Origin: Streptomyces sp. NBC_01476
Lineage (GTDB): Bacteria > Actinomycetota > Actinomycetes > Streptomycetales > Streptomycetaceae
NCBI RefSeq assembly: GCF_036227265.1
Contig: NZ_CP109446.1
Location: 781,501-845,500, forward strand
Direction: 5' to 3'
DNA: 64,000 nt
Below are positions 8,701 to 58,447 of this stretch, in pieces. The position numbers and the translations under genes were made by a program. Positions within the stretch are counted from its first letter, which is position 1; the number at the start of each line of letters is the position of its first letter. Under the pieces are notes generated by a model that was not told the DNA's origin, did not search any database, and saw nothing but the letters and a program-made list of their open reading frames with translations.

Positions 8701-9744
8701 CCCTGGGTGCCCGGCGAGCGGCGGTTCCCGCCGTCGCCGACGGTCACCACCCCGCGCAGCGGTGCCACGGTCAAGCTCGCCTCGGCCGTCTCCGGCACCA
8801 CGGTCCCCGACGGCACGGTGACCGTGCACGAGGGGACCGCGGTCCTGTGCGGGGCCGGCGCGGACGACACCGGCGCCTGGAGCTGCGCTCCGAGCGGGGG
8901 GCTGACGCCGGGGCGGCAGATCATCACCGTCACGGTGGCCGACCCGAGCGGCCTGGTCAGTGACGCCTCCGCCGGGCTCAGCTTCGACGCCTCCGACCTG
9001 CCGCCGGGCACGGCCGTGGTGGGCTCGGTCATCGGACCGGTCGACTTCGCTTACGGGATGAGCCAGGACGAGCGGCCCTCGGGCGGCTTCGACGGTCCGA
9101 CGACCGCCTCGGTGATCGACGGTCTGACCGCGCGCACCAGTACCCAGAGCAACATCTACTTCGACATCGACGACGCGGTGGCGCACGCCGGCTACTACAC
9201 GGCGCAGTTCACCGTCTCCTACTACGACCAGGGGTCCGGGTCCTTCGCCGTGCAGTACGACAACGGCAGCTCCGACCCGTACAAGTCGGCGGCCGGCATC
9301 CCGCTGACCGGCACCAACACCTGGAAGACCGCGACGGTGAGCGTCTCCGACGCCTTCTTCGGCGGTCAGCAGCACTCCGCGGCCGACTTCCGGCTGCGCA
9401 ACGGCGGCGGCCAGGTGACGGTGCACAGCGTCGCCGTGAAGATCAGCGGGGACGGGGTACCGGACGTCACGGACTTCGCGCCGCCGGTGACGATCACCTC
9501 GCCGGCGGCGGGAGCGACCGTCACCTCCGGCCCGGCGGTCTCCGGGACCAGTGAGCCGGACGCGGAGGTGACGGTGAAGGCCGAGGACAGCACGCTCTGC
9601 ACGGTCACCGCGGCCGACGACGGGACATGGACCTGCACCCCGTCCACCGCCCTGGCCGCCGGTCCGCACACCCTCACCGCCACGGCCGCGGACCCGACCT
9701 CGACACCCGCGAAGGAGGCCACCGTGGCAGTCACCGTGCGGTAG
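5758..9744 (+). CDS. Secreted GH95-like glycoside hydrolase with repeated C-terminal modules
   Basis: This 1328-residue exported protein starts at GTG 5758, behind CTGGAGGG, with an Arg-rich n-region and a hydrophobic signal ending near AGAATG. The N-terminal beta-domain carries MPLGNGSLGVAAW and QLNRSD, as in GH95 alpha-L-fucosidases and the related DUF5703 proteins. An (alpha/alpha)6-type middle follows, with ANAHETQWAVQDPTTDIAVD in the position of the GH95 catalytic loop and a C-cap containing IRFAPAWPADW. The last third contains two homologous modules of about 150 residues (near 8230-8700 and 9000-9460, each with YFD-D-A, SYFDSGTGS or SYYDQGSGS, and a HSA/HSV motif). Each is followed by an Ig-like bacterial repeat. 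The modules are probably carbohydrate-binding. Substrate specificity is not proven; a fucosyl or other deoxysugar glycan is likely. Confidence 0.72.
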   Translation: MQIIPLYRRARLRRALALWSAMLAALAGMVLAGSGPAGAATGATTAWRHGAFQLDPAGVVSRSDVVLGAPNLDPTASMPLGNGSLGVAAWAAGGFTAQLNRSDTMPDRKSPGQLNIPGLSVISHAADFSGRLDLTDGVLHESGGGMSMKAWVATGKDELIVEVAGADPHIPQTATINLWSGRKPAAAVSGKVGTLAETWVDGGPPIGSGQTFGSLAAITAGGRHVSATVAGPTQVKVSFTPHADGTFRVVVASPGWTGGNAARTAAKLIGDDATARASSLMSAQDRWWDRYWTHSGLIEMNSADGSAAYIENLRTLYLYEEAASMKKGIYPGSQAGEADMFAWNKDTQTWTPSAYWLWNLRTQISANMSSGNYDLNTPIFDMYANDTAAIEAWTKLAMGGRPGSCVPETMRFNGNGLDIPTGNCSEASSPNWNALDISSGPEVALYMWQQYQATGDRKTLKKYFPFMKSTAVFQLAYQSVGPDGLLHANANAHETQWAVQDPTTDIAVDRTLFPIIEQAAKELGTARTTDAALVKRVHQAQSEIPPYPRTDQATRTALLNPHYTQAETAAADATGTDMIAISYQPTAARQNGENIELEPLWPWNTVSDQDSNLFALEQRSYAHRPNKGGNDWSMDAIDAARLQNPAEVRSDLISLTEGHQVYPNGFADLGNSVGYQPYIEQESGVATAVAEALAQDYDGIIRFAPAWPADWDGSGSVYIQDNGKVDVQVRGGQLVTAAIEAGGNGTLRVKNPWAGQRVEVVDGRTGHVVVAPSTRDLLKVPVRAGRSYLVQRVSAPTGALPYAQVTGTAPTAARHLGGVQLGLDTTARSGTATVGTVLDTTNHAYGLTQVDDSGSAGATTTAGDVDGLTARTTSAPGRHGSSDMYFDVSDDVAATGVYDGTIALSYFDSGTGSIAVRYDAGPKDPDRLAGTIALTGSRTWKSAEVAVKGAYFGGLQSAGADFRLHAAGSITVHSAGLTVTGPWVPGERRFPPSPTVTTPRSGATVKLASAVSGTTVPDGTVTVHEGTAVLCGAGADDTGAWSCAPSGGLTPGRQIITVTVADPSGLVSDASAGLSFDASDLPPGTAVVGSVIGPVDFAYGMSQDERPSGGFDGPTTASVIDGLTARTSTQSNIYFDIDDAVAHAGYYTAQFTVSYYDQGSGSFAVQYDNGSSDPYKSAAGIPLTGTNTWKTATVSVSDAFFGGQQHSAADFRLRNGGGQVTVHSVAVKISGDGVPDVTDFAPPVTITSPAAGATVTSGPAVSGTSEPDAEVTVKAEDSTLCTVTAADDGTWTCTPSTALAAGPHTLTATAADPTSTPAKEATVAVTVR

Positions 9745-9761
9745 CGCTCACCTGCCGGTGC

Positions 9762-9803
9762 CGGTCCGGCCTGGGTCCTCCGCGAGGGGCCCCGGCCGGA
9801 CCG
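9762..9803 (+). terminator. Putative terminator after the GH95-like gene
   Basis: A 10-bp stem pairs 9762-9771 (CGGTCCGGCC) with 9794-9803, enclosing a G/C-rich loop and followed by CTTCTTCC. It begins 17 bp after the stop codon. Confidence 0.5.
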
Positions 9804-9847
9804 CTTCTTCCGGGAAGGTTTCCCCGGAGACCGAAGTTGCACCAGAC

Positions 9848-10972
9848 ATGGACGACTCGGGTGGCGTGCGGAACGTCGAGGTGGCGGTGGTCGGTGCCGG
9901 GCAGGCCGGGCTGTCGGCGGCGTACTTCCTGCGCCGGACGGGTTACGAGCCCGGCACCGGCTTCGTCGTGCTGGACCACGCTCCCGGCGCGGGCGGCGCC
10001 TGGCAGTACCGCTGGCCGTCGCTGACCTTCGCCAAGGCGCACGGCGTCCACGAGCTGCCCGGCATGCCGCTCGGCGACGCGGACCCCGACCGGCCGTCGG
10101 CCGAGGTGGTCGGCGCGTACTTCGCCCGGTACGAGGCCGCCTTCGATCTGCGGGTGCGCAGGCCGGTGGACGTGCTCGCGGTACGGGACGATGTCGGTGG
10201 CCGGCTCCGGGTGGAGACCGACGCGGGCGTCTGGTCGGCGCGGGCGCTGATCAACGCCACCGGCACCTGGGACCGGCCGTTCCTGCCGTACTACCCGGGT
10301 CAGGAGACCTTCGAAGGGCGGCAGCTGCACACCGCGGGCTACCGGGGAGCGGCCGAGTTCGCCGGCAGGCATGTGGTGGTGGTCGGCGGCGGCACCTCCG
10401 CCGTGCAGCTGCTCATCGAGCTGGCCGAGGTCGCCAGGACCACATGGGTGACCCGCAGGCCGCCGGTCTTCCAGGACATGCCGTTCGACGAGGACTGGGG
10501 CCGGGCGGTGATCGCCCGGGTCGAGGAGCGGGTCCGGCGGGGCCTGCCGCCGCAGAGCGTGGTCTCCGCCACCGGGCTCGCGGCGACCGAAGCGATACGG
10601 AAGGCGCAGGCCCGCGGCATCCTGCACCGGGAGCCGATGTTCGCACGGATCACACCGCACGGTGTGACCTGCGCGAACGGCCGCACCCTGGACGCGGACG
10701 TGATCTTGTGGGCGACCGGCTTCCGGGCCGCGCTCGACCATCTGGCGCCGCTGCGGCTGCGCGAGCCGGGCGGCGGCGTGCGGATGGAGGGCACCCGGGT
10801 GGTGAAGGACCCGCGGATCCACCTGGTCGGCTACGGCCCCTCGGCGAGCACCATCGGCGCCAACCGGGCCGGCCGCACCGCCGTCCGTGAGATCCGCGAT
10901 CTGCTGGCGGCCCGGAAGGCCGGCGGAGATCGTCCCCGTATTGCCCCGGCGCGGGAGGGCGCCAGCCTCTAG
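9848..10972 (+). CDS. FAD/NAD(P)-binding flavoprotein monooxygenase-like
   Basis: This 374-residue protein has two Rossmann dinucleotide-binding motifs: GAGQAGLSAAYFL near the N-terminus for FAD, and VVGGGTSAVQLL in the middle for NAD(P)H. Between them lie the GGAWQYRWPSL region and INATGTWDRPF, which are typical of flavin-containing and Baeyer-Villiger-like monooxygenases in actinomycetes. The late ILWATGFRAALDHL motif also fits this group. ATG 9848 has only a weak ribosome-binding site (GGAG at 9827), but homology starts within ten residues. It stands between the GH95-like gene and a small membrane protein gene, and its substrate is not evident. Confidence 0.8.
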   Translation: MDDSGGVRNVEVAVVGAGQAGLSAAYFLRRTGYEPGTGFVVLDHAPGAGGAWQYRWPSLTFAKAHGVHELPGMPLGDADPDRPSAEVVGAYFARYEAAFDLRVRRPVDVLAVRDDVGGRLRVETDAGVWSARALINATGTWDRPFLPYYPGQETFEGRQLHTAGYRGAAEFAGRHVVVVGGGTSAVQLLIELAEVARTTWVTRRPPVFQDMPFDEDWGRAVIARVEERVRRGLPPQSVVSATGLAATEAIRKAQARGILHREPMFARITPHGVTCANGRTLDADVILWATGFRAALDHLAPLRLREPGGGVRMEGTRVVKDPRIHLVGYGPSASTIGANRAGRTAVREIRDLLAARKAGGDRPRIAPAREGASL

Positions 10973-10981
10973 GTTGTGGGG

Positions 10982-11209
10982 ATGGGGACACACAGCTGGA
11001 AGACGGTGCTGTCGGTGCTGTCGGGGGTGTCCGCGGTCGCCGCACTGGCCGCGGTGGCGCTGGTCGTGGCGGCCCTGCTGGGTGCGGTGGGGTGGCCCGC
11101 CGTGGTCGTACCGGCGGCGGTCGCCGTACTGAGCGCGGCACTGTCGCTGCTGGCGGAGTCCGGTCCTGGCGGGAGCGGCGGCGGCCGTCCCGAGGGCCGG
11201 CATCAGTAG
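10982..11209 (+). CDS. Small two-helix membrane protein, unknown function
   Basis: This 75-residue protein has two hydrophobic segments (about residues 12-32 and 36-54), and a hydrophilic Gly-rich tail. I do not recognise the family. ATG 10982 lies six bases after TAGGTT (10970-10975), the spacing expected for a leaderless transcript, and no other ribosome-binding site is seen. It follows the flavoprotein stop codon by only nine bases. Confidence 0.5.
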   Translation: MGTHSWKTVLSVLSGVSAVAALAAVALVVAALLGAVGWPAVVVPAAVAVLSAALSLLAESGPGGSGGGRPEGRHQ

Positions 11210-11228
11210 GCCACCGAATACCCCGAAG

Positions 11229-11243
11229 AGACATCGGATGTCT
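11229..11243. promoter_or_regulatory. 15-bp perfect palindrome upstream of lutA (GntR-type operator candidate)
   Basis: AGACATC-G-GATGTCT is a perfect inverted repeat with a one-base centre, lying 87 bp before the lutA start. FadR-subfamily GntR regulators such as LutR and LldR bind short palindromes of this kind in front of lactate-utilisation operons. No regulator gene is adjacent, so the identity of the binder is inferred. Confidence 0.55.
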
Positions 11244-11330
11244 GCTTCCCAGCAGCCAACCGTTGCGGCAGTATGGGCGCATGTGTGATCGTCATCTGCC
11301 CGGCCCGCCCCTGAGCGCCGGGGAGTGCCC

Positions 11331-12146
11331 GTGCGCGTAGCCCTCTTCGTGACCTGTGTGAACGACCTGCTCTACCCGGACACCGGGCGGGCGGTCGTCA
11401 CCCTGCTGGAACGGCTCGGCGTCGAGGTCGGCTTCCCGCCGGCCCAGTCGTGCTGCGGACAGCCCCAGTTCAACACCGGCTACCGGTGGGAGACCGAGCC
11501 ACTGGTCCGCCGGTACGCCGCCGCCTTCGCGGATTACGACTACGTGGTGACGCCGTCGGGTTCGTGCACCGCGATGGTCCGCGACAACTACCCGCTGATC
11601 GGTGCGAAGGCCGCGGCGGAAGGACGTGGCACCGAACTCGCCGAAGCCGCCGCGCTGTCGGTGCCGAAGACCTACGAACTGACCGAGTTCCTGGTGGATG
11701 TGCTCAAGGTGACCGATGTGGGGGCCTATTTCCCGCACACGGTCACCTACCACCCCTCCTGCCACGGGCTGCGGATGCTGCGTCTGGGCGACCGGCCCCG
11801 GCGGCTGCTGGAAGCGGTCAAGGGCATCGAACTGCGTGAACTGGAGGGCGCGGAGGAGTGCTGCGGCTTCGGCGGCACGTTCTCGGTGAAGAATCCCGAT
11901 GTGTCGGCGGCGATGGGTGACGACAAGGTCCGCAATGCCGAGTCCACCGGCGCCGAGGTGCTGTGCGCCGCCGACAACTCCTGCCTGATGCACCTCGGCG
12001 GCATGATGTCCCGGCAGAAGAGCCGCGTCCGCCCGGTGCACCTGGCGGAGATCCTGGCCAGTACGGAGCAGCGTCCGCTGGAACTGCCCGATCAGGCCGG
12101 GCCCGTCCATGTGACCACCGGAAGCACCGTAGGAGAACAGCGATGA
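11331..12146 (+). CDS. lutA: L-lactate utilisation protein LutA, (Fe-S)-binding
   Basis: This 271-residue protein is LutA, one of three subunits of the LutABC complex that oxidises L-lactate to pyruvate in the cytoplasm. It contains the two cysteine-rich CCG domains of the family: SCCGQPQFNTGY near the N-terminus, and HPSCHGLR followed by ECCGFGGTFSVK in the second half. The GTG at 11331 lies five bases after GGGGAG; a GTG two codons earlier overlaps that site. Its stop codon overlaps the lutB start (ATGA), indicating translational coupling. Base composition and codon use (CTG, GTG, GAG, AAG) are normal for the window, in contrast to lutB and lutC. Confidence 0.93.
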   Translation: MRVALFVTCVNDLLYPDTGRAVVTLLERLGVEVGFPPAQSCCGQPQFNTGYRWETEPLVRRYAAAFADYDYVVTPSGSCTAMVRDNYPLIGAKAAAEGRGTELAEAAALSVPKTYELTEFLVDVLKVTDVGAYFPHTVTYHPSCHGLRMLRLGDRPRRLLEAVKGIELRELEGAEECCGFGGTFSVKNPDVSAAMGDDKVRNAESTGAEVLCAADNSCLMHLGGMMSRQKSRVRPVHLAEILASTEQRPLELPDQAGPVHVTTGSTVGEQR

Positions 12147-13789
12147 GCGGTACGTATCTGGGGTTGCCGTCGTTCCCGAAAGCCGCTCACGACTCCACCC
12201 GCGACACCCAACTCCGCGCGAACCTCACCCACGCCACCCACACCATCCGCACCAAACGCGCCACCGCCATCAACGAACTCACCGACTGGCCCCAACTCCG
12301 CGCCGCCGGCGCCGCCATCAAAGACCACACCCTCCACCACCTCGACCACTACCTCCTCCAACTCGAAGCAGCCGTCACCGCAGCCGGCGGCACCGTCCAC
12401 TGGGCCCTCGACGCCAACGAAGCCAACACCATCGCCACCCAGATCATCAAAAACACCGGCGAAACCGAAGTCGTCAAAATCAAATCCATGACCACCCAGG
12501 AAACCGGCCTCAACCACGCCCTCGAAACCGCCGGCATCCACGCCTACGAAACCGACCTCGCCGAACTCATCGTCCAACTCGCCAACGACAAACCCTCACA
12601 CATCCTCGTCCCCGCCATCCACAAAAACCGCACCGAAATCCGCGACATCTTCACCACCCACATGACCCACTGGGGACGCCCCGCACCCGACAACCTCACC
12701 GACAACCCCACCGACCTCGCCGAAGCCGCCCGCCTCCACCTCCGCGAAAAATTCCTCAACACAAAAATCGGCATCTCCGGCGCCAACTTCATGATCGCCG
12801 AAACCGGCACCATGGTCATCCTCGAATCCGAAGGCAACGGCCGCATGTGCCTCACCCTCCCCGACACCCTCATCACCATCGCCGGCATCGAAAAAATCAT
12901 CCCCACCTACCAAGACCTCGAAGTCTTCCTCCAAACCCTCCCCCGCTCCTCCACCGCCGAACGCATGAACCCCTACACCTCCCTGTGGACCGGCACCACC
13001 CCCCACGACGGCCCCCACACCTTCCACCTCATCCTCCTCGACAACGGCCGCACCGACACCCTCGCCGACACCACCGGCCAACAAGCCCTCCGCTGCATCC
13101 GCTGCTCCGCCTGCCTCAACGTCTGCCCCGTCTACGAACGCGCCGGCGGCCACGCCTACGGCTCCCCCTACCCCGGCCCCATCGGCGCCATCCTCACCCC
13201 CCAACTCCGCGGCACCACCACCCCCCTCGACACCTCACTCCCCTACGCCTCCACCCTCTGCGGCGCCTGCTACGACGTCTGCCCCGTCGCCATCAACATC
13301 CCCCAAGTCCTCGTCCACCTCCGCGAACGCATCACCCAAGGCGGACCCACCACCACCCACGGCACCCGCACCACCATCCAACCCGCCAAAGGCCACCGCC
13401 TCGAACGCACCACCATGCGCGCCACCCGCTGGACCCTCAACCACCCCACCGCACTCCAACACGCCCACAACCTCGCCACCCACACCCGCCACCTCCACCC
13501 CCAACACCTCCCCGGCCCCGCCCACCACTGGACCGACACCCGCAACCTCCCCCCACTCCCCCCACACACCTTCCGCCACTGGTGGCAACACCACCACCAA
13601 ACACCCCCCACCACCAACACCGGAAAAGGAACAGACACCAGATCAGAAACAGCAACAGGCCCCGGCACAGACACCGGCACAGCAGGCACCGGCACCGGCA
13701 CCGGCACCGGCACCGGCACCGGCACCGGCACCGGCACCGGCACCGGCACCGGCACCAACACGCAAACCGACGGGGGACCTCAGCAATGA
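12143..13789 (+). CDS. lutB: L-lactate utilisation iron-sulfur protein LutB
   Basis: This 548-residue protein is LutB, the ferredoxin-like subunit of LutABC. It carries the LUD domain (KIGISGANFMIAETGT) and two 4Fe-4S motifs, CIRCSACLNVCPVYE and CGACYDVCPVAI. ATG 12143 overlaps the lutA stop and follows AGGAGAACAG. About the first 12 codons look like the neighbours (CTG, GGG, TTG, CCG, TCG). From about 12178 onward Lys is AAA, Glu is GAA, Gln is CAA, Leu is CTC and Val is GTC almost without exception. The C-terminus is longer than usual, and ends in a Thr-Gly repeat tail encoded by a GGCACC array. The core motifs are intact, so the protein is probably functional, but the coding DNA looks foreign or recoded. 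Confidence 0.9.
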   Translation: MSGTYLGLPSFPKAAHDSTRDTQLRANLTHATHTIRTKRATAINELTDWPQLRAAGAAIKDHTLHHLDHYLLQLEAAVTAAGGTVHWALDANEANTIATQIIKNTGETEVVKIKSMTTQETGLNHALETAGIHAYETDLAELIVQLANDKPSHILVPAIHKNRTEIRDIFTTHMTHWGRPAPDNLTDNPTDLAEAARLHLREKFLNTKIGISGANFMIAETGTMVILESEGNGRMCLTLPDTLITIAGIEKIIPTYQDLEVFLQTLPRSSTAERMNPYTSLWTGTTPHDGPHTFHLILLDNGRTDTLADTTGQQALRCIRCSACLNVCPVYERAGGHAYGSPYPGPIGAILTPQLRGTTTPLDTSLPYASTLCGACYDVCPVAINIPQVLVHLRERITQGGPTTTHGTRTTIQPAKGHRLERTTMRATRWTLNHPTALQHAHNLATHTRHLHPQHLPGPAHHWTDTRNLPPLPPHTFRHWWQHHHQTPPTTNTGKGTDTRSETATGPGTDTGTAGTGTGTGTGTGTGTGTGTGTGTGTNTQTDGGPQQ

Positions 13790-14430
13790 CCACCAACACC
13801 AGCCGCGACGAAATCCTCCGCCGCATCCGCCAAGCCCTCGGCACCCCCACCCCCACCACCCCACCCGACCCCACCACCATCCCCCGCAACTACCTCACCA
13901 CCCACGCCCACCGCACCCCCCAACAAACCACCGACCTCCTCGCCGACAACCTCACCGACTACCGCGCCACCGTCCACCGCACCACCGAAACCCACCTCCC
14001 CCACACCATCGCCAACCTCCTCACCCACCACGGCACCCAACGAGCCATCACACCCCCCGGCCTCCCCCCACACTGGCTCACCCACACCACCACCCCCTCA
14101 CCACAACCACCACCGACACCCACCCCGACCCCCACACCCTCGACACCATCGACACCGTCATCACCCACAGCGCCCTCGCCATCGCCGAAACCGGCACCAT
14201 CATCCTCGACGCCTCACCCGACCAAGGCCACCGCGCCATCACCCTCATCCCCGACCACCACATCTGCATCATCACCCCCGACCACATCGTCGAATCCCTC
14301 CCCCAAGCCCTCCCCCGCCTCAACCCCACCCGCCCCCAAACCTGGATCTCCGGCCCCTCCGCCACCAGCGACATCGAACTCACCCGCATCGAAGGCGTCC
14401 ACGGCCCCCGCGCCCTCGACGTCATCATCG
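12178..14430 (+). other. Composition island: strongly C-over-G biased coding strand
   Basis: Within this segment the coding strand is extremely rich in C and poor in G. For example, I count 32 C and 10 G in 12961-13020. Third codon positions are almost only C or A. The change is abrupt at both ends: a dozen codons into lutB, and at the last codons of lutC (GTG AGT CGC). The proteins encoded are still normal LutB and LutC, so the bias is at the DNA level. Replacement by a homologous segment from a donor with different codon use is one explanation. Confidence 0.75.
13685..13756 (+). repeat. Hexanucleotide microsatellite (GGCACC) x 12
   Basis: Twelve perfect copies of GGCACC encode alternating Gly and Thr at the LutB C-terminus. 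Copy-number change would add or remove two residues without shifting the frame. The array lies 30 bp before the lutC start. Confidence 0.92.
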
Positions 14431-14441
14431 TGAGTCGCTGA
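13786..14441 (+). pseudogene. lutC: Frameshifted LutC, L-lactate utilisation protein
   Basis: ATG 13786 overlaps the lutB stop. The first part is clearly LutC (SRDEILRRIRQAL, DNLTDYRATVHR, ITPPGLPPHWL). Around 14093-14097 the match leaves this frame and continues in another one, which reads VITHSALAIAETGTIILDA, then QTWISGPSATSDIELTRIEG and VHGPRALDVIIV, ending at TGA 14439-14441. One missing C in the run CCCCC at 14093-14097 would explain the shift exactly. Unrepaired, the first frame runs into Pro/Ser/Thr-rich sequence and stops at 14433. The run lies in very C-rich DNA, so a sequencing or assembly error is as likely as a real mutation. If it is real, the LutABC complex would lack a working LutC. 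Confidence 0.82.
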
Positions 14442-15087
14442 ACCGCTCCGCCGCAGGACGGGCGAGGTGCAGCCGGCCCGCGGTGAACCGGGCCTGCCGC
14501 AGGTCGTCGATGGTCAGGTCGACCTCCGCCTCGCGGCTGCGCGGCCCGATGCCGATGACACTGCCGACGGCGGCTGCCCGGGCCGCCCGGATGCCGCTGG
14601 GCGCGTCCTCGAAGACGACGCAGTCGGCGGGCAGGAGACCGAGCCGGCCGGCCGCGGCGAGATATCCCTCAGGGTCCGGTTTGCCGTGGCGGACATCGTC
14701 GGCAGTGATCAGGACGGCGGGTTCCGGGATCCCCGCGGCGGCCAGGCGGGCCTTGGCCAGCGCCCGTACCCCTGAGGTGACGACCGCCCAGGTGCCGGCG
14801 GGCAGCGAGGACAGCAGGTCGGCGGCGCCGGGCAGCGCGGTGACCTGTGCCGCGTCCTCGACTTCGTACCGGTCGATGGCCGCCAGCGCGTCCGGCACCC
14901 GGTCGGCCGGGAGGAGCGCCGCGACGGTGTCGGCGGAACGGCGGCCGTGTACCAGGGCGTTGACCACCTCCGGGTCGAAGCCGTACTGCTCGGCCCACCG
15001 GGTCCACGCGGACTGGACACTGGCATCGGAGTCCACCAGTACGCCGTCGCAGTCGAAGAGCAGGCCGCGGGGGGTGAGCACGGTCAT
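14425..15087 (-). CDS. HAD-family sugar-phosphatase-like hydrolase
   Basis: This 220-residue HAD hydrolase resembles phosphoglycolate phosphatase, beta-phosphoglucomutase and 2-deoxy-sugar-phosphatase members. Motif I is LLFDCDGVLVDSD, with the nucleophilic Asp; motif II is VVTSG; motif III is the Lys of HGKPDPEGY; and motif IV is VVFEDAPSGI. The cap domain is inserted after motif I. The ATG at 15087 overlaps the stop of the upstream dehydrogenase gene (ATGA), so the two are translationally coupled. Its 3' end overlaps the end of lutC by 17 bp on the opposite strand. A role on a sugar phosphate from the surrounding carbohydrate genes is plausible but not shown. Confidence 0.85.
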   Translation of the reverse strand: MTVLTPRGLLFDCDGVLVDSDASVQSAWTRWAEQYGFDPEVVNALVHGRRSADTVAALLPADRVPDALAAIDRYEVEDAAQVTALPGAADLLSSLPAGTWAVVTSGVRALAKARLAAAGIPEPAVLITADDVRHGKPDPEGYLAAAGRLGLLPADCVVFEDAPSGIRAARAAAVGSVIGIGPRSREAEVDLTIDDLRQARFTAGRLHLARPAAERFSDSR

Positions 15088-16145
15088 GAGACGGGCCGAT
15101 TGCGGTAGCGGCCGACGAGTTCCGGGGCGGCGACCTGCATCCGGGCCGGCGGCATCCCCCGCTGGACGAGGCGGAGGTCGTCCAGGACCATCCGGCCGAT
15201 CTCGGTGAACGCCTGCGGGATGCCGCCGGCCCGGTGCGGGGAGAGCACCAGGCCCTCCATGCCGCGGGCCCGGTGCCCGGCGGCCAGGGGTTCCTCGGGC
15301 CAGACGTCGACGCCGGCCAGGAACCGGCCGTCGGCGACCCGGTCGAGCAGGGCGTCGTAGTCGACGACGGCGGCCCGGCTGACCAGGACAACCCGGGCGC
15401 CGGAGGGGATCCGGTCGAGTTCGGCGGGCCCCAGGAGGTGTTCGCTCTCGCTGGTGACGGTGGCGAGCACGAAGAGGAACCGGCTGGCCTCCAGGGTCTC
15501 GGCCAGCGTGGCCGGCAGGACGTCGTGGCCGCGGAGCACGGCGTCGGGCAGCCACGGGTCGTACACCCTGATGGTGGGTGCGAAGGGAGCCAGCAGCGGG
15601 CGCAGCGCCCGGCCCAGGTTGCCGAAGCCGATCAGGCCGACGTCGGCGTGCCGGAGCAGGATCGAGTCCTGGGTGCCGGCGAAGACGTAGGACTCGCGGC
15701 CGGCCCGGAAGGCGCGGTCCTCGCGGCTGATGCCGCGGGCGAGGTCGAGGGCGAGACCGAGGGCGTGTTCGGCGACCGCCTGGGCGTAGGCCGGGCCGCA
15801 GCCCAGGACGTGCACGCCCCGTTCGTGGCAGGTCGCGTAGTCGACGTTCGGGAAGAAGTTGCCCTCGACGTTGAGCAGCGCCCTGAGTTTCCCGGCTCGC
15901 AGCAGCCGTTCGCGGGGGAGGTCGGGCTGCCCCACGATGGCGAAGGCGTCGGGGAGGTGGGCGTCGAGTTCCGCCTCCGGCCGTCCTGAGAGGTCGACGA
16001 CGTCGAATGCCTCGTTGAGCAGGTTCAGCGTGTCGGGTGTGAAGATGCGGTCGGTCTTCTGCGGGGCGGGCCGCAGCACCACCAAGGGCTTGGGCGGTGT
16101 GCCGGGCGCCGTGGCGGCGCTTTCCTGGCGGTCTGTGGCAGGCAA
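15084..16145 (-). CDS. D-isomer-specific 2-hydroxyacid dehydrogenase family protein
   Basis: This roughly 353-residue NAD-dependent dehydrogenase has the Rossmann motif VGLIGFGNLGRALRPLL and the three catalytic positions of the family: Arg in VLVSRAAVVD, Glu in VDVWPEEPL and His in LSPHRAGGIP. It would interconvert a 2-hydroxyacid and a 2-ketoacid; members near sugar genes often act on hydroxypyruvate or glyoxylate-type compounds. The start is uncertain. The longest frame begins with TTG at 16145, while an internal GTG at the VVLRPAPQK segment is also possible. The gene forms a two-gene operon with the HAD hydrolase and lies convergent to lutABC. Confidence 0.82.
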   Translation of the reverse strand: MPATDRQESAATAPGTPPKPLVVLRPAPQKTDRIFTPDTLNLLNEAFDVVDLSGRPEAELDAHLPDAFAIVGQPDLPRERLLRAGKLRALLNVEGNFFPNVDYATCHERGVHVLGCGPAYAQAVAEHALGLALDLARGISREDRAFRAGRESYVFAGTQDSILLRHADVGLIGFGNLGRALRPLLAPFAPTIRVYDPWLPDAVLRGHDVLPATLAETLEASRFLFVLATVTSESEHLLGPAELDRIPSGARVVLVSRAAVVDYDALLDRVADGRFLAGVDVWPEEPLAAGHRARGMEGLVLSPHRAGGIPQAFTEIGRMVLDDLRLVQRGMPPARMQVAAPELVGRYRNRPVS

Positions 16146-16251
16146 GTCGGTCCCATTTCGTCCTGGCGGGTGCGTACCGGGCCGGCGTCGCAGCCGCCGG
16201 CCGGCTGTGACCAGCGTACGAGCCGCCGGCGCGGCCGGGGGCGCACAGGGG

Positions 16252-16289
16252 AACGGGAGCGGCCCCGTGTGGCGGGGGCCGCTCCCGTT
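16252..16289 (-). terminator. Strong hairpin terminator of the GH78 gene
   Basis: A perfect 15-bp stem pairs 16252-16266 (AACGGGAGCGGCCCC) with 16275-16289, with an 8-nt loop. It lies 33 bp beyond the stop codon of the minus-strand rhamnosidase gene, and also separates it from the dehydrogenase operon. Confidence 0.8.
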
Positions 16290-16322
16290 GGTGGTGGGTG
16301 CGTCAGGAGTTCCGGGTCTCGC

Positions 16323-19300
16323 TCACGGCGCGAGTTCGGCGATCCGGGTGAAGCTGTTCTGGGCGCCGGTGACCACGACCCGCAGTTGGGTGGTGGTCAC
16401 CGGGGCGGTGAACGGGATGCGCTGGGTGACCGCGGTGTTGCCGGACACGGTGGCCCGGGTGGTCCACTGCGTGCCGTCCCAGCTCTGGACGGTGAAGTCG
16501 GTGGGGACGCCGTCGGGGAACGAGATGAGGGCCACGCTGCCGAGCGTCACCGGGGACGGGGTCGTGAGGGTGAGGGTGTCGGGATAGACGCTGTCGGTGT
16601 CGTCGTTCCAGAAGGTCGCGGTGTTCCCGTCGATGGCGTTGGCGGGGTCGTAGGTGCGGGTCGCGCCGTCGACCACGTTGGGCGCGTGGAAGCTGGAGGC
16701 GGTCACGGTGGTGCCGGCCGGCCAGTTGCCGAAGACGGAAAGGTGCGCGGTGGTGGTGGCGACGGTGCCGTCCGGTGCCCTGAGCTTCAGGGGGATGTCG
16801 TAGTCGCCGCCGGTGGCGTCGGCGGGGACGCTGATCCGCACGGTGGCGAGTGTCTCCGTCGGGGCCGGGGTGAGCGGGATACGTGCCGGGGTCGTGGTCG
16901 CCGTCCAGCCGGCCGGCAGCTGGGCGGTGAGCTCGGCGGAGCCCGGCGTGGTGGAGGACGCCCCGATCACGGCGCTGACGTCGGCGGCGGAGCCGGCCTT
17001 GACCGATGACGCGGTGCCCGCGGTCACCGAGAGGTGGGAGACCGGGGTGCGGGGGGCGGTGACGGTGAAGGTGTAGTCGCCGGAGCCCGCGGTCAGGGTC
17101 AGCGCCCGGTCGGTGGCCTTTCCGGTGGTCAGGCCCGGGGCGGACTGGGCGTGGCGGCCGCCGGCGTAGAGGGTGTGTCCGCTCTCCTTGACGGTGGATC
17201 CGGTGCCGCCGAGCAGCGGCAGTTCGATCGTGGCGGTCGCCCCGACCGGGACGACGGCATGGTAGGTGAGGGTGCTGCCGTCGCGCTGCCAGGAGCTCTT
17301 GACGGTGCCGCGGACGGTCTGCTGTTCGGCCGTCACATGGGTCAGGTCGCCGACGACGCTCGGCGCCAGGGTGAGGCTGCTGTACCCGGAGCCGCTGGTG
17401 CCGGGCTGGATGCCGGCGAGCTGCTGGTAGTACCACTGGCCGATGGAGCCGCCGAGGCCGATGTGGTCCTTGGAGGACGTGCCGTCGGGGGCCGTGGAGT
17501 TCGGCCACTTCTCCCAGATGGTGCCGGGGCCCTGCTCGACCATGTATCCGAAGCTGGGGGCGTCGTCGCGTTCGGCGATGGCGAGCGCCACGTCGTTGCG
17601 GTGGAAGGCGCCGAGTGCCTGGAAGACGTAGGTGGTGCCGACGAATCCGGTGGTGACGTGGTTGCCGTGTGCCGCGATGTCCTGGACCAGGCGGTCGAGT
17701 GAGGTCTGCTCGTGGCCCGCCGGGACGAGGCCGAGCACGAGCGGCATCGCGTAGGAGAGCTGTGAGCCGTTGCCGAAGACGCCGGTCGCGGCGTTGAAGT
17801 ACCGCTTGAGGAAGCCGGTCCTCACCTGGTCGGCGAGCGCGGAGTAGTGGGCCGCGTCCGCGGTGTGGCCGGTGACGGCGGCCATCTTCGCCAGCAGGTT
17901 CGCGTCGAGGTAGTAGAAGAGGGTCTGGTAGTAGCTGTGCGGGGTGCTGACGGAGGCCAGCCAGTCGTCGCCCCACGAGGTCGGCGAGCCGACCACGATG
18001 TGGTCGGTGTCGCTGATGGTGGCGAGGTAGTCGACCCACGCCTTGACCTGGCTGTAGTTATCGGTGATCGGCTGCTTGCTGCCGTACTGGGTGTAGGAGT
18101 CCCAGATGATCTGCGGGTAGGCCGAGCCCCACGCCGGGTCGGTGGCCCAGCCCTGGCTGCCGTTGGTGGGGGCCACCGACGGGAGGCTGCCGTCGGCGTT
18201 GGCGCTGGTGACGATGTCGCCCAGCCACTTGTCGTAGAAGGACTGCATGTCGAAGTTGCTCATCGCCTCCTGGTCGGAGTCGCCGGCGTCGCCGAGCCAG
18301 CCGTGCCGCTCGCGGGTCGGGCAGTCCATCGGGATGGACTCGAGGTCGTTGAGCTGAGTCTGGGTGACCGCGTCCTGGATCTTGTTCAGCAGCGGGTTGG
18401 AGGTGCTGAACTGTCCGGTGGTGGGGACGTCGGTGTGGACGACCTGGGCGGTCACGGTGACCTTGGCGTCGTCGGGCAGCCCGCTGAGCTCGGCGTAGCG
18501 GAAGCCGGCATAGGTGAAGTGCGGGGTGTAGGTCTCGGTGCCGGCGCCGCTGAAGGTGTAGTGGTTGGTCTGCCGGGGCGGGTCGGAGGCGGAGAAGCTG
18601 ATGTTGGTGGTGGAGACGTTGCCGTTCGCGTCGAGTATCTCGCCCTGGGTGATGTCGGCCTTGGTGCCGGCCGGCGCGGTGGCCTGGAGGGTGGCCCAGC
18701 CGGTGTGGTTCTGGCCGAAGTCGTAGACGCGCTTGCCCGCCGCGGGGCGGGTCTCCTTGACCGGCTTGAGGGTCTGCACGACCCGGGCCGGCGGGGAGAC
18801 ATCGGCCCGCAGGTCCGTCATGGCGTCGAGGACCGTGGTGGAGTGGGCGCCGTAGGCGCCGAGTTCGGCCAGCCGGAAGGTGCAGCTGGTGCCGATGCAG
18901 CGCAGTTCTGTGACGGTGACCCGGAGGTAGCGGCCGGTGACGTCGGTGCTGATGTCCACCGGTGAGGTGCCGGGGTTGGGCTGGTCGGCTCCGGTGCGGT
19001 CGGCGACGGTGGTCGCGGTGGCGAAGGACGGGTCGTCACTGACCTGGACCTTGTAGCGGACCGGGAAGCCGGCGCCGGGGAAGTCGCCCCCCGTGTCGTT
19101 GGTGGGCCGGGCCGGGAAGAGCCGGATGGTGCGCAGCTTCTGGTCGGAGCCGAGGTCGGTCTGCACCCACTTGGTGGTGTCCGGGGTCGACTCGATCGCC
19201 GAGTGGTAGCCCTCCGAGGCGTCGGTGGAGGCGTCGACGCCGTCGGTGAGCGCGGCCGGCGACCAGCCGGCGGTGGTCGTGGTGTCCAGGGCGGTGACCG

Positions 19301-57595: not shown

Positions 57596-58447
57596 TCAGA
57601 CGACCGGCCGGCTGAGCCAGCCGTCCGCCGTGACGCCCACGGTCCGGGTGCGGTACGCCGGCTTGCCGCTGAGCAGCCGCTGGATCAGGAAGCCGAGGGT
57701 CAGGGTGAGGGCGCCGCCCGCCGCGTCGGCGATGAAGTGGTTGCCGGTGGAGAGGATCACTGTGAGGGTGGCCAGCGGGTAGAGGGCGCCGAGTATCCGC
57801 ACCCAGGTGTGCTTGGCCAGGAAGGCGATGGTCAGGCCGCTCCAGGCGGCCCAGACGATGTGCACCGACGGCATCGCCGCGTACAGGTTCGACACCGTGG
57901 AGACGTGTCCCGACCCCCATGAGCCCCAGGTGTGGTGGGTGACCACGGTGTCGATGAACCCCTCGTCGGGCAGGAAGCGCGGGGGCGCCAGCGCGAAGAA
58001 GGCGAAACCGAACAGGGCCAGCAGGGTCGCGCTGAACAGGGCGGTGCGGCCGGCCCGGTAGCGCTCGGGGCGGAAGGCGTAGAGCCAGATCAAGGTCAGC
58101 GGCGTCACTATGAAGTGCAGCGTGGCGTAGTAGTAGTTCATGCCGACCACCAGCCACGACACCTTGTCGACGGCGTGGTTCAAGGTCAGCTCGATGTCGA
58201 CGTGCAGCCACCGTTCGGCGGACAGGATCTCCCGGGCCCGGTGCAGCGCCGCCGTCCGGTGCGAGGGCACGTAACGCCGGGTCCGGCTGTAGGCCAGATA
58301 CAGTCCGACCGTGAAGGCCAGCTCCACCAGCAGATGTGGCCGGCCGGTCCGCCGCAGCCGGTCCGGCAGCAGGGGGCCGAACCTCGGCCGGCCTTCCCGT
58401 CGCGCGGAGGTCTCCTGGGCGGTCTCGACCGGGCGCGTCGCGGTCAC
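57596..58447 (-). CDS. PAP2-family phosphatase (inositolphosphotransferase-like)
   Basis: This 283-residue membrane protein has about six helices and the PAP2 motifs of the Aur1/Ipt1-like group: AMPSVHIVWAAWSG and STGNHFIADAAGG, with the catalytic His residues. A hydrophilic N-terminal part of about 50 residues precedes the first helix. GTG 58447 follows GGGGGA; upstream in-frame sequence is Arg-rich and unlikely to be coding. It probably acts on phospholipid or prenyl-phosphate head groups at the membrane. Confidence 0.86.
   Translation of the reverse strand: MTATRPVETAQETSARREGRPRFGPLLPDRLRRTGRPHLLVELAFTVGLYLAYSRTRRYVPSHRTAALHRAREILSAERWLHVDIELTLNHAVDKVSWLVVGMNYYYATLHFIVTPLTLIWLYAFRPERYRAGRTALFSATLLALFGFAFFALAPPRFLPDEGFIDTVVTHHTWGSWGSGHVSTVSNLYAAMPSVHIVWAAWSGLTIAFLAKHTWVRILGALYPLATLTVILSTGNHFIADAAGGALTLTLGFLIQRLLSGKPAYRTRTVGVTADGWLSRPVV

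Follow-up and report, generated by a model that had tools for sequence, protein, structure and literature searches.

Gene conversion between two lut copies on opposite chromosome arms as the probable setting of a strand-skewed lutBC island in Streptomyces sp. NBC_01476

How do two adjoining genes of a catabolic operon come to be written, almost throughout, in a nucleotide composition that the gene before them lacks? The question is raised by a stretch of 64,000 nucleotides of Streptomyces sp. NBC_01476, the window hereafter, which spans positions 781501–845500 of the 8.4-Mb chromosome of the genome that we designate G000; the genomes compared with it are labelled likewise. The window carries a lactate-utilisation operon, lutABC, whose products follow in the order LutA with a CCG domain, LutB with LUD, 4Fe-4S and LutB_C domains, and LutC with a LUD domain. 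We consider it highly probable that the strand skew of lutB and lutC was set within recurrent ectopic gene conversion between this operon and a second copy on the opposite chromosome arm. The features concerned are, in window coordinates:

11325–12146, plus strand: lutA, encoding a cysteine-rich domain protein (Pfam CCG); GC skew +0.02, composition ordinary
11758–14430, without strand: conversion tract of 2.7 kb, from the alignment with the second copy (G000:C1 at ~7.85 Mb, minus strand)
12143–13789, plus strand: lutB, 548 amino acids, with LUD domain, 4Fe-4S dicluster domain and LutB_C (Pfam LUD, Fer4_8 and LutB_C); the skew begins at codon 12
12178–14430, plus strand: skew island in lutBC, GC skew −0.53 and TA skew −0.44
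13685–13756, plus strand: GGCACC tandem repeat, whose longest perfect run is 12 units, and 4 in the second copy
13786–14441, plus strand: lutC, within the island; the frame is broken near 14092 in the window copy, and open over 234 amino acids in the second copy

The initial annotation had described a coding strand that turns C-rich and G-poor at about codon 12 of lutB and stays so into the last codons of lutC, with sharp edges and biased codon endings, and this description holds. The edges lie at 12178 and 14430, and the count of 32 C to 10 G at 12961–13020 proved correct when repeated by eye. On the coding strand, the base fractions of the island are C 0.513, A 0.237, G 0.157, and T 0.093, and its most extreme 500-base window reaches a GC skew of −0.70. 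Third positions of lutB are C 0.80, A 0.14, G 0.05, and T 0.01, against C 0.45 and G 0.41 in lutA. At the fourfold degenerate sites of lutB residues 13–480 (278 codons), C accounts for 0.95 and G for 0.01, against 45% C and 48% G in lutA. Over the same residues, the Lys, Glu, and Gln codons end in A at a fraction of 0.96 (49 codons), against 0.26 in lutA (31 codons). The sliding-window check that had been proposed sets the island apart: within the window it alone exceeds a |GC skew| of 0.28 (600-base windows), and a sample of the same chromosome (40 segments of 20 kb, i.e., 800 kb; 3120 overlapping 500-base windows in 250-base steps) contains no window at |0.45|, with a median |GC skew| of 0.066. 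A single 500-base window at 16401–16900 shows a weak opposite skew on the top strand (GC +0.29, TA +0.21).

The description of the products as canonical LutB and LutC stands in part. The LutB domains are kept and the Cys motif CIRCSACLNVCP is found at residue 318. However, LutB scores 422 bits, below the NCBIfam LutB/LldF cut-off of 445 bits, and ends in a Thr/Gly-rich tail encoded by the GGCACC tandem repeat. The two halves of lutC in the window copy lie in different frames, and the LUD match of the C-terminal half falls outside the frame in which the gene starts; a run of C near 14092 is one C shorter than in the second copy, which reflects either a sequencing error or a real pseudogene.

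The second lutABC copy lies at ~7.851–7.854 Mb on the minus strand of G000:C1, with the repeat partner of lutB/lutC at 7851289–7852896, so that the two copies face each other across 7 Mb on opposite arms. When positions 9000–17000 of the window were compared with it, only 11321–14431 aligned. The 1901 bases from 11758 to 13658 are without a single difference. From 13659 to 14412 there are few substitutions together with indels, including the lutC indel and a 36-base difference in the GGCACC repeat, which is shorter by that length and interrupted in the second copy. The 5′ ~430 bp of lutA are diverged (~82% identical), with 13–20% differences per 100 bases over 11300–11700 and the last ones at 11756 and 11757, and the remainder of lutA is identical. 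The earlier proposal that the inner part of two genes had been replaced was right in kind, except that the other sequence belongs to this same genome, as the second lut copy on the opposite arm, and not to a lineage with other codon use.

We compared the extent of identity and of skew across the genus to which we provisionally assign the strain, Actinacidiphila. Five genomes have two comparable lutB copies (G000, G034, G025, G011, and G023), and in all five the ~95–100% identical stretch is the skewed one; outside it, identity is mostly 55–93% and the skew moves towards zero. The tracts differ in extent. They run from mid lutA to the end of lutC in G000 and from late lutA to about +1200 of lutB in G034. 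In G025 the tract begins at about +450 of lutB, before which the copies are 95% identical with less skew, and reaches the end of the contig. In G011 it extends from where the contig starts to +1200, and in G023, where the skew is weaker, from 0 to +1200. We then scored 30-codon bins as in-tract at 98.5% identity, adding the partial pair of G019. In 18 of 18 bins present in both states the in-tract mean is more negative, several bins drawing on a single copy pair. The mean skew is −0.38 in-tract (79 cells) and −0.11 out-of-tract (71 cells), and when tract positions were shifted circularly within genomes, p was 0.0002, the lowest value that 5000 shifts allow. The rank correlation differs among genomes: G034 and G025 show it strongly, G023 and G011 also show it, in G019 it is weak, and in G000 there is none. 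We infer that biased conversion produced the skew.

Two types of upstream flank recur at the lut loci of the genus. The L type has the gene families F8, F9, and F10 upstream of lut, presumably for rhamnose catabolism; F10 is an FGGY sugar kinase (Pfam). The R type has F2 upstream, usually with F4 and F7 or F3, and, downstream, F1 (an ABC transporter by Pfam) and F15, usually with F6, F5, and F11. Among 80 named loci, F9/F10 are found upstream in 40, and R-type genes occur at seven, six of which belong to the genus. The window copy shows the R-type upstream marker:

9758–10972, plus strand: pyridine nucleotide-disulphide oxidoreductase of family F2 (Pfam and synteny), marker of the R-type upstream side

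Separate trees of lutA and lutB, also proposed in the initial annotation, gave different groupings. The lutB tree (residues 60–395; 35 rows from the genus and 8 from Streptomyces) pairs the two copies by genome in 6/6 cases (G000, G034, G025, G019, G023, and G011). The lutA tree was built from residues 3–117, outside most tracts. Here, locus decides the grouping of the G025 and G019 copies (100/92 for the L copies and 96/88 for the R copies), and in G000, G034, G023, and G014 the two copies of a genome stand apart from each other. As lutB pairs by genome and most lutA 5′ ends do not, the trees point to concerted evolution rather than recent duplication, and indicate that lutB is homogenized by ectopic gene conversion between the copies. 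Exchange of lutB within the genus may occur in addition. Had lutBC been duplicated only recently, when it already carried the skew, and not been converted repeatedly since, a near-identical tract such as that of the own genome would also be expected; copies at two upstream flank types found genus-wide, lutA 5′ ends that group by genome at most in G020, and the same tract pattern in five genomes with different ends would not. We regard such a history as very unlikely.

The lutB tree also bears on the idea that lutBC was replaced horizontally by DNA of a lineage with other codon use, which the sharp edges inside a gene and the contrast in codon use with the neighbors had suggested. Window LutB nests within the genus, with its own second copy first and then G020 and G034, and the island sequence does not nest in a foreign lineage. 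Moreover, the skew is graded among relatives, from −0.53 to −0.01 for lutB across the genus, with edges at differing places; outside the genus, among the 80 named loci, it is at most −0.20. To our knowledge, no lineage has 95% C at fourfold sites genome-wide. The tree and the graded relatives lead us to reject a foreign origin, which is highly improbable.

Skew and lut copy number are linked, although not strictly. Among the genomes of the genus with a lutB skew value, and at a skew of −0.15 or stronger, 7/7 two-copy genomes (G000, G034, G025, G023, G011, G019, and G020) and 8/22 single-copy genomes are skewed, leaving 14/22 single-copy members of the genus unskewed. The count omits G014, G015, and G018, in which no lutB was found, G030, in which one was found, G003, with a C-terminal piece only (−0.40), and G032 (−0.03), whose distant second lutB is at 60%. 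Of the seven skewed single-copy genomes examined for it (the eighth is G002), some show signs of a lost partner: G009 has a lutA remnant behind F10, G021 has a truncated F9, and G031, G008, and G022 are without F9. Partner loss is thus supported in part, in G009 and less directly in the other four. In addition, G009 and G012 are assembled in 80 and 130 contigs, respectively, so that a collapsed second copy is possible there. Contigs end inside or beside lut in G025, G020, G019, G011, G014, and G003, which argues for repeats in those assemblies. In G014 (C14/C6), G018 (C507), and G003 (C102/C157/C168), contigs stop in or near lut, and most or all of lutB is absent from the assembly; near-identical skewed repeats may have been dropped during assembly.

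Several observations weigh against the reading by recurrent conversion. In G000, identity extends 420 bases upstream of the skew, the 3′ half of lutA being identical yet unskewed. One lutA bin of G025 and one lutC bin of G034 are 97% identical without strong skew, and one G011 copy is skewed (−0.28 to −0.57) beyond its own tract. The contrast in G019 is weak (−0.12 in-tract, −0.05 out), and G000 lacks the rank correlation; in that genome identity outreaches the skew towards lutA, and codons are probably misaligned by the broken frame of lutC. Eight single-copy genomes are skewed (lutB −0.16 to −0.43), so that the link with copy number is not one-to-one, and the genomes are not independent lineages: most skewed ones form one clade, which implies few independent origins. 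As to partner loss, the unskewed G010 and G032 are likewise without F9, and G006 and G012 retain F9–F10 with no lut remnant there. Finally, the lutA tree does not sort fully by locus (seven changes for R, six for L), and the G020 copies fall in one group.

The direction of the base changes is marked. The reference was the consensus of 23 unskewed lutB genes, 13 from the genus and 10 from Streptomyces. Relative to it, window lutB has changed from keto to amino at 147/512 sites and from amino to keto at 6/580, with 17 A/C exchanges and one G/T exchange; the 13 unskewed genomes of the genus, each scored with itself omitted from the consensus, have 11–38 and 13–39 such changes, respectively. Changes from C lead to A 14 times, to G three times, and to T twice in window lutB, and mostly to G (8–29) in the unskewed genomes. 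The strongly skewed G034, G020, G006, G011, G025, G009, and G031 have 1–13 amino-to-keto changes. Fourfold sites with G in the consensus are now C at 40/42 in the window (one is A), 41/44 in G034, and 37/37 in G020, and the nonsynonymous positions of lutB shift in the same direction. The G+C content of lutB is 0.66, against 0.70–0.74 in unskewed members of the genus. Read on the coding strand, the lut changes run from keto (G, T) to amino (A, C), and in both copies this strand has lagging-strand polarity.

As lut is transcribed towards the chromosome center in both copies, it cannot separate the effect of transcription from that of replication. Polyketide synthase genes offered such a separation. 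A first lead came from 27 acyltransferase loci, of 30 fetched, in complete or near-complete genomes of the genus, and was extended to 26 stretches around acyltransferase matches (20 of 20 kb and 6 of 12 kb); the lead places are included, which makes this an extension and not an independent test. With islands defined by |GC skew| > 0.25 and |TA skew| > 0.15 of one sign, 12/26 stretches hold 34 islands, and 33/34 (27/27 plus 6/7) have the sign expected for a lagging strand rich in A and C. A binomial test gives p 4e-9, which overstates the case since the islands trace to some eight clusters, of which those in G031 and G021 resemble each other. The 17 islands co-directional with the fork, with strand assigned by script and for five by the acyltransferase matches, have a coding strand rich in G and T. 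In the co-directional islands L296 and L278 (G034 at 2.92 Mb and G006 at 8.39 Mb), third positions are G 0.67–0.69 and T 0.06–0.17, a mirror of the lut island. Coding-strand polarity due to transcription was dropped as the cause, given these G-rich coding strands. The gene dnaA lies near the middle of the contig (0.48–0.60) in 11/11 genomes. In the 800-kb sample of the own genome, 18/22 weak islands follow the replication rule, a proportion that ordinary strand skew could also yield. Two loci count against a replication-bound sign: the weak synthase island G017:5360200–5360900 (L302), the sole one of the 34 with the wrong sign, and the acyltransferase locus G029:1045902, with the wrong sign at GC −0.31 and no TA skew.

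These islands also help to judge whether codon or mRNA selection against G shaped lutBC. The kept protein domains and synonymous sites near saturation are what such selection would give. Nevertheless, the skew largely ends at tract ends inside genes, the 14 unskewed single-copy genomes carry the same genes, A-ending Lys, Glu, and Gln codons are rare (0.05–0.15) in the five unskewed relatives tabulated, nonsynonymous positions shift as the synonymous ones do, and synthase islands transcribed with the fork have the opposite sign on the coding strand. Given the tract edges and the replication dependence, selection is not favored and scarcely probable. The initial annotation had taken the pattern in all close relatives, with a lutBC tree matching lutA, as what would point to locus-specific selection; this is not what the data show. 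Its suggestion of an unusual mutational regime comes nearer, in that the regime accompanies gene conversion, with edges that largely move with the tract and a sign that appears tied to the replication strand.

A mutation bias of the replication strand, e.g., cytosine deamination in single-stranded DNA, could be stronger at recombining repeats and need no mismatch rejection. The observed sign matches the surplus of G and T that leading strands ordinarily carry (PMC3174206), and it follows the replication strand. However, deamination predicts G to A, and the fourfold consensus-G sites of the window went to C at 40/42 and to A at one, so that a strand-biased G-to-C process would be required. Deamination is not favored for this reason, and we hold a mutation bias of this kind to be unlikely, though not negligible.

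Rejection of mismatches by NucS could supply the bias. The own genome has one NucS match and, in a profile search, no match to MutS_V. Oligonucleotides creating G-G, G-T, or T-T mismatches give >500-fold fewer recombinants in Mycobacterium smegmatis in vivo and the other mismatches tested escape; without nucS, all mismatches give high frequencies, G-G slightly lower (PMC11551767). Among the substrates tested in vitro, the Streptomyces ambofaciens NucS cuts only G/T, G/G, and T/T, helped by the replication clamp (PMC11109965). In M. smegmatis, sequences that are not identical recombine less because of NucS (PMC8228993), and the repair patch of NucS is short, a neighboring A-C mismatch 5–6 bp away mostly surviving (PMC11551744).

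In the mechanism that we propose for lut, donor single strands would anneal to gaps in the lagging-strand template, where NucS would undo G-G, G-T, and T-T mismatches and other mismatches would survive. Donor C over recipient G would form C-C and stay, and donor G over recipient C would form G-G and be undone; likewise, donor A over recipient G would stay and donor G over recipient A would be undone. With each round of conversion, the strand of lagging polarity would thus lose G and T and gain A and C. The strand preference would come from the donor and not from NucS, and the recoding of the protein would be a by-product of biased conversion. Lagging-strand entry, NucS action at the lut and synthase loci, and a sufficient number of conversion rounds are assumed steps.

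The proposal fits because both skews, their common sign, the base changes of strongly skewed genomes, and the replication dependence are all predicted by it. If true, it predicts G-to-C as well as G-to-A changes, scarce C-to-G, C-to-T, A-to-G, and A-to-T changes, a skew that depends on the direction of replication, and enrichment of such repeats in phyla that have NucS. Two points tell against it. The mildly skewed G023, G021, G012, G022, and G008 have 21–36 amino-to-keto changes, no fewer than unskewed genomes, and NucS has been held a priori unable to act strand-specifically (PMC12999951). We found no paper stating the idea of NucS-biased conversion in the open-licence literature. We therefore put forward NucS and a lagging-strand step as the cause of the skew only tentatively, as a possibility somewhat short of even. 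The same reserve applies to the generalization of this idea, by which the intensely skewed repeats of actinobacteria might have arisen by lagging-strand, single-strand conversion in which NucS screens the donor one base at a time.

Such repeats are known as GRINS, stretches of 0.5–1 kb or more with identity above 80–90% and GC and TA skews above 0.15–0.25, found in polyketide synthases and commonest in actinobacteria (PMC9899208 and PMC10394414). The lut island resembles them as a within-genome high-identity repeat longer than 0.5 kb with strong GC and TA skews of the same sign, a link with conversion, and an actinobacterial host (PMC9899208, PMC10394414, and PMC11907408). The 2.7-kb tract, with its 1901 bases without difference, exceeds the repeat threshold of at least 500 bp at >80% identity (PMC9899208), the skews of −0.53 and −0.44 exceed those quoted, and gene conversion is supported by the comparison of tract and skew and by the lutA and lutB trees. 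It differs in lying in a lactate-utilisation operon and in having its partner not within the same polyketide synthase but at another locus, 7 Mb off on the opposite arm; in addition, the edges of its skew and those of conversion can be set side by side at orthologous loci. Since it shares the repeat, the skew, and the link with conversion, yet lies outside a synthase, we call it a GRINS variant. The 2021 GRINS paper reportedly found GRINS in other gene families as well, and is said to have left the mechanism open. The ketoacyl synthase (PF00109) loci of the own genome were dropped as a second case: 20/20 are without comparable skew, with a peak of |0.24|.

As in GC-biased gene conversion, the composition of lut would be driven by conversion and mismatch handling and not by selection on the gene; unlike it, the bias is strand-asymmetric, from keto to amino, and lowers G+C. 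As in the replication-strand GC skew of bacterial chromosomes, the leading strand is richer in G and T, but the lut skew of −0.53 over 2.25 kb exceeds by far the median of |0.066| for the 500-base windows of the sample, is confined to repeated tracts, and consists at fourfold sites almost entirely of G-to-C changes. The lut loci thus offer a natural experiment, with one orthologous gene pair in many species, tracts of differing extent, and a skew that largely follows them. The link with the tract and the replication-strand sign narrow the cause of skewed repeats and lead to a concrete, testable mechanism. An ordinary catabolic operon, and not synthases alone, can be recoded by skew; opposite chromosome arms recombine at lut, and many-contig assemblies break at or miss these genes.

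The flanks of the two own-genome copies are hybrid. The window copy has R-type genes upstream and lacks the R-type downstream genes, and the second copy is L-type upstream with the R-type downstream genes at their usual spacing. In G034, one copy is R/R and the other is L with different genes downstream. The hybrid flanks of the own genome would be explained by at least one crossover between the inverted lut copies, which swaps the arms around the chromosome center and which we regard as likely. One gene in the window bears on its reciprocity:

57695–58318, minus strand: gene that also lies downstream of the L-type loci in G034 and G002 (tblastn, 73–74% identity)

This gene, 45 kb downstream of the window copy, recurs 30–40 kb downstream of the G034 and G002 L copies on the same strand; it is one of 22 open reading frames taken from each of G034 and G002. 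It gives a hint that the downstream side of the window is L-type, i.e., that the crossover was reciprocal. Against this, the single-copy G029 and G028 are also L-type upstream with F1 and F15 7.7–8.7 kb downstream, so that the hybrid flank of the own genome could be old and reciprocity is only hinted at. The position of obgE is compatible with an arm swap, yet differs among the 13 genomes in which it was searched. The F9 gene that the own genome carries upstream of its second copy (G000:C1:7855443–7857581) is interrupted by an in-frame TAA and otherwise 87% identical, which may impair the L-type upstream genes.

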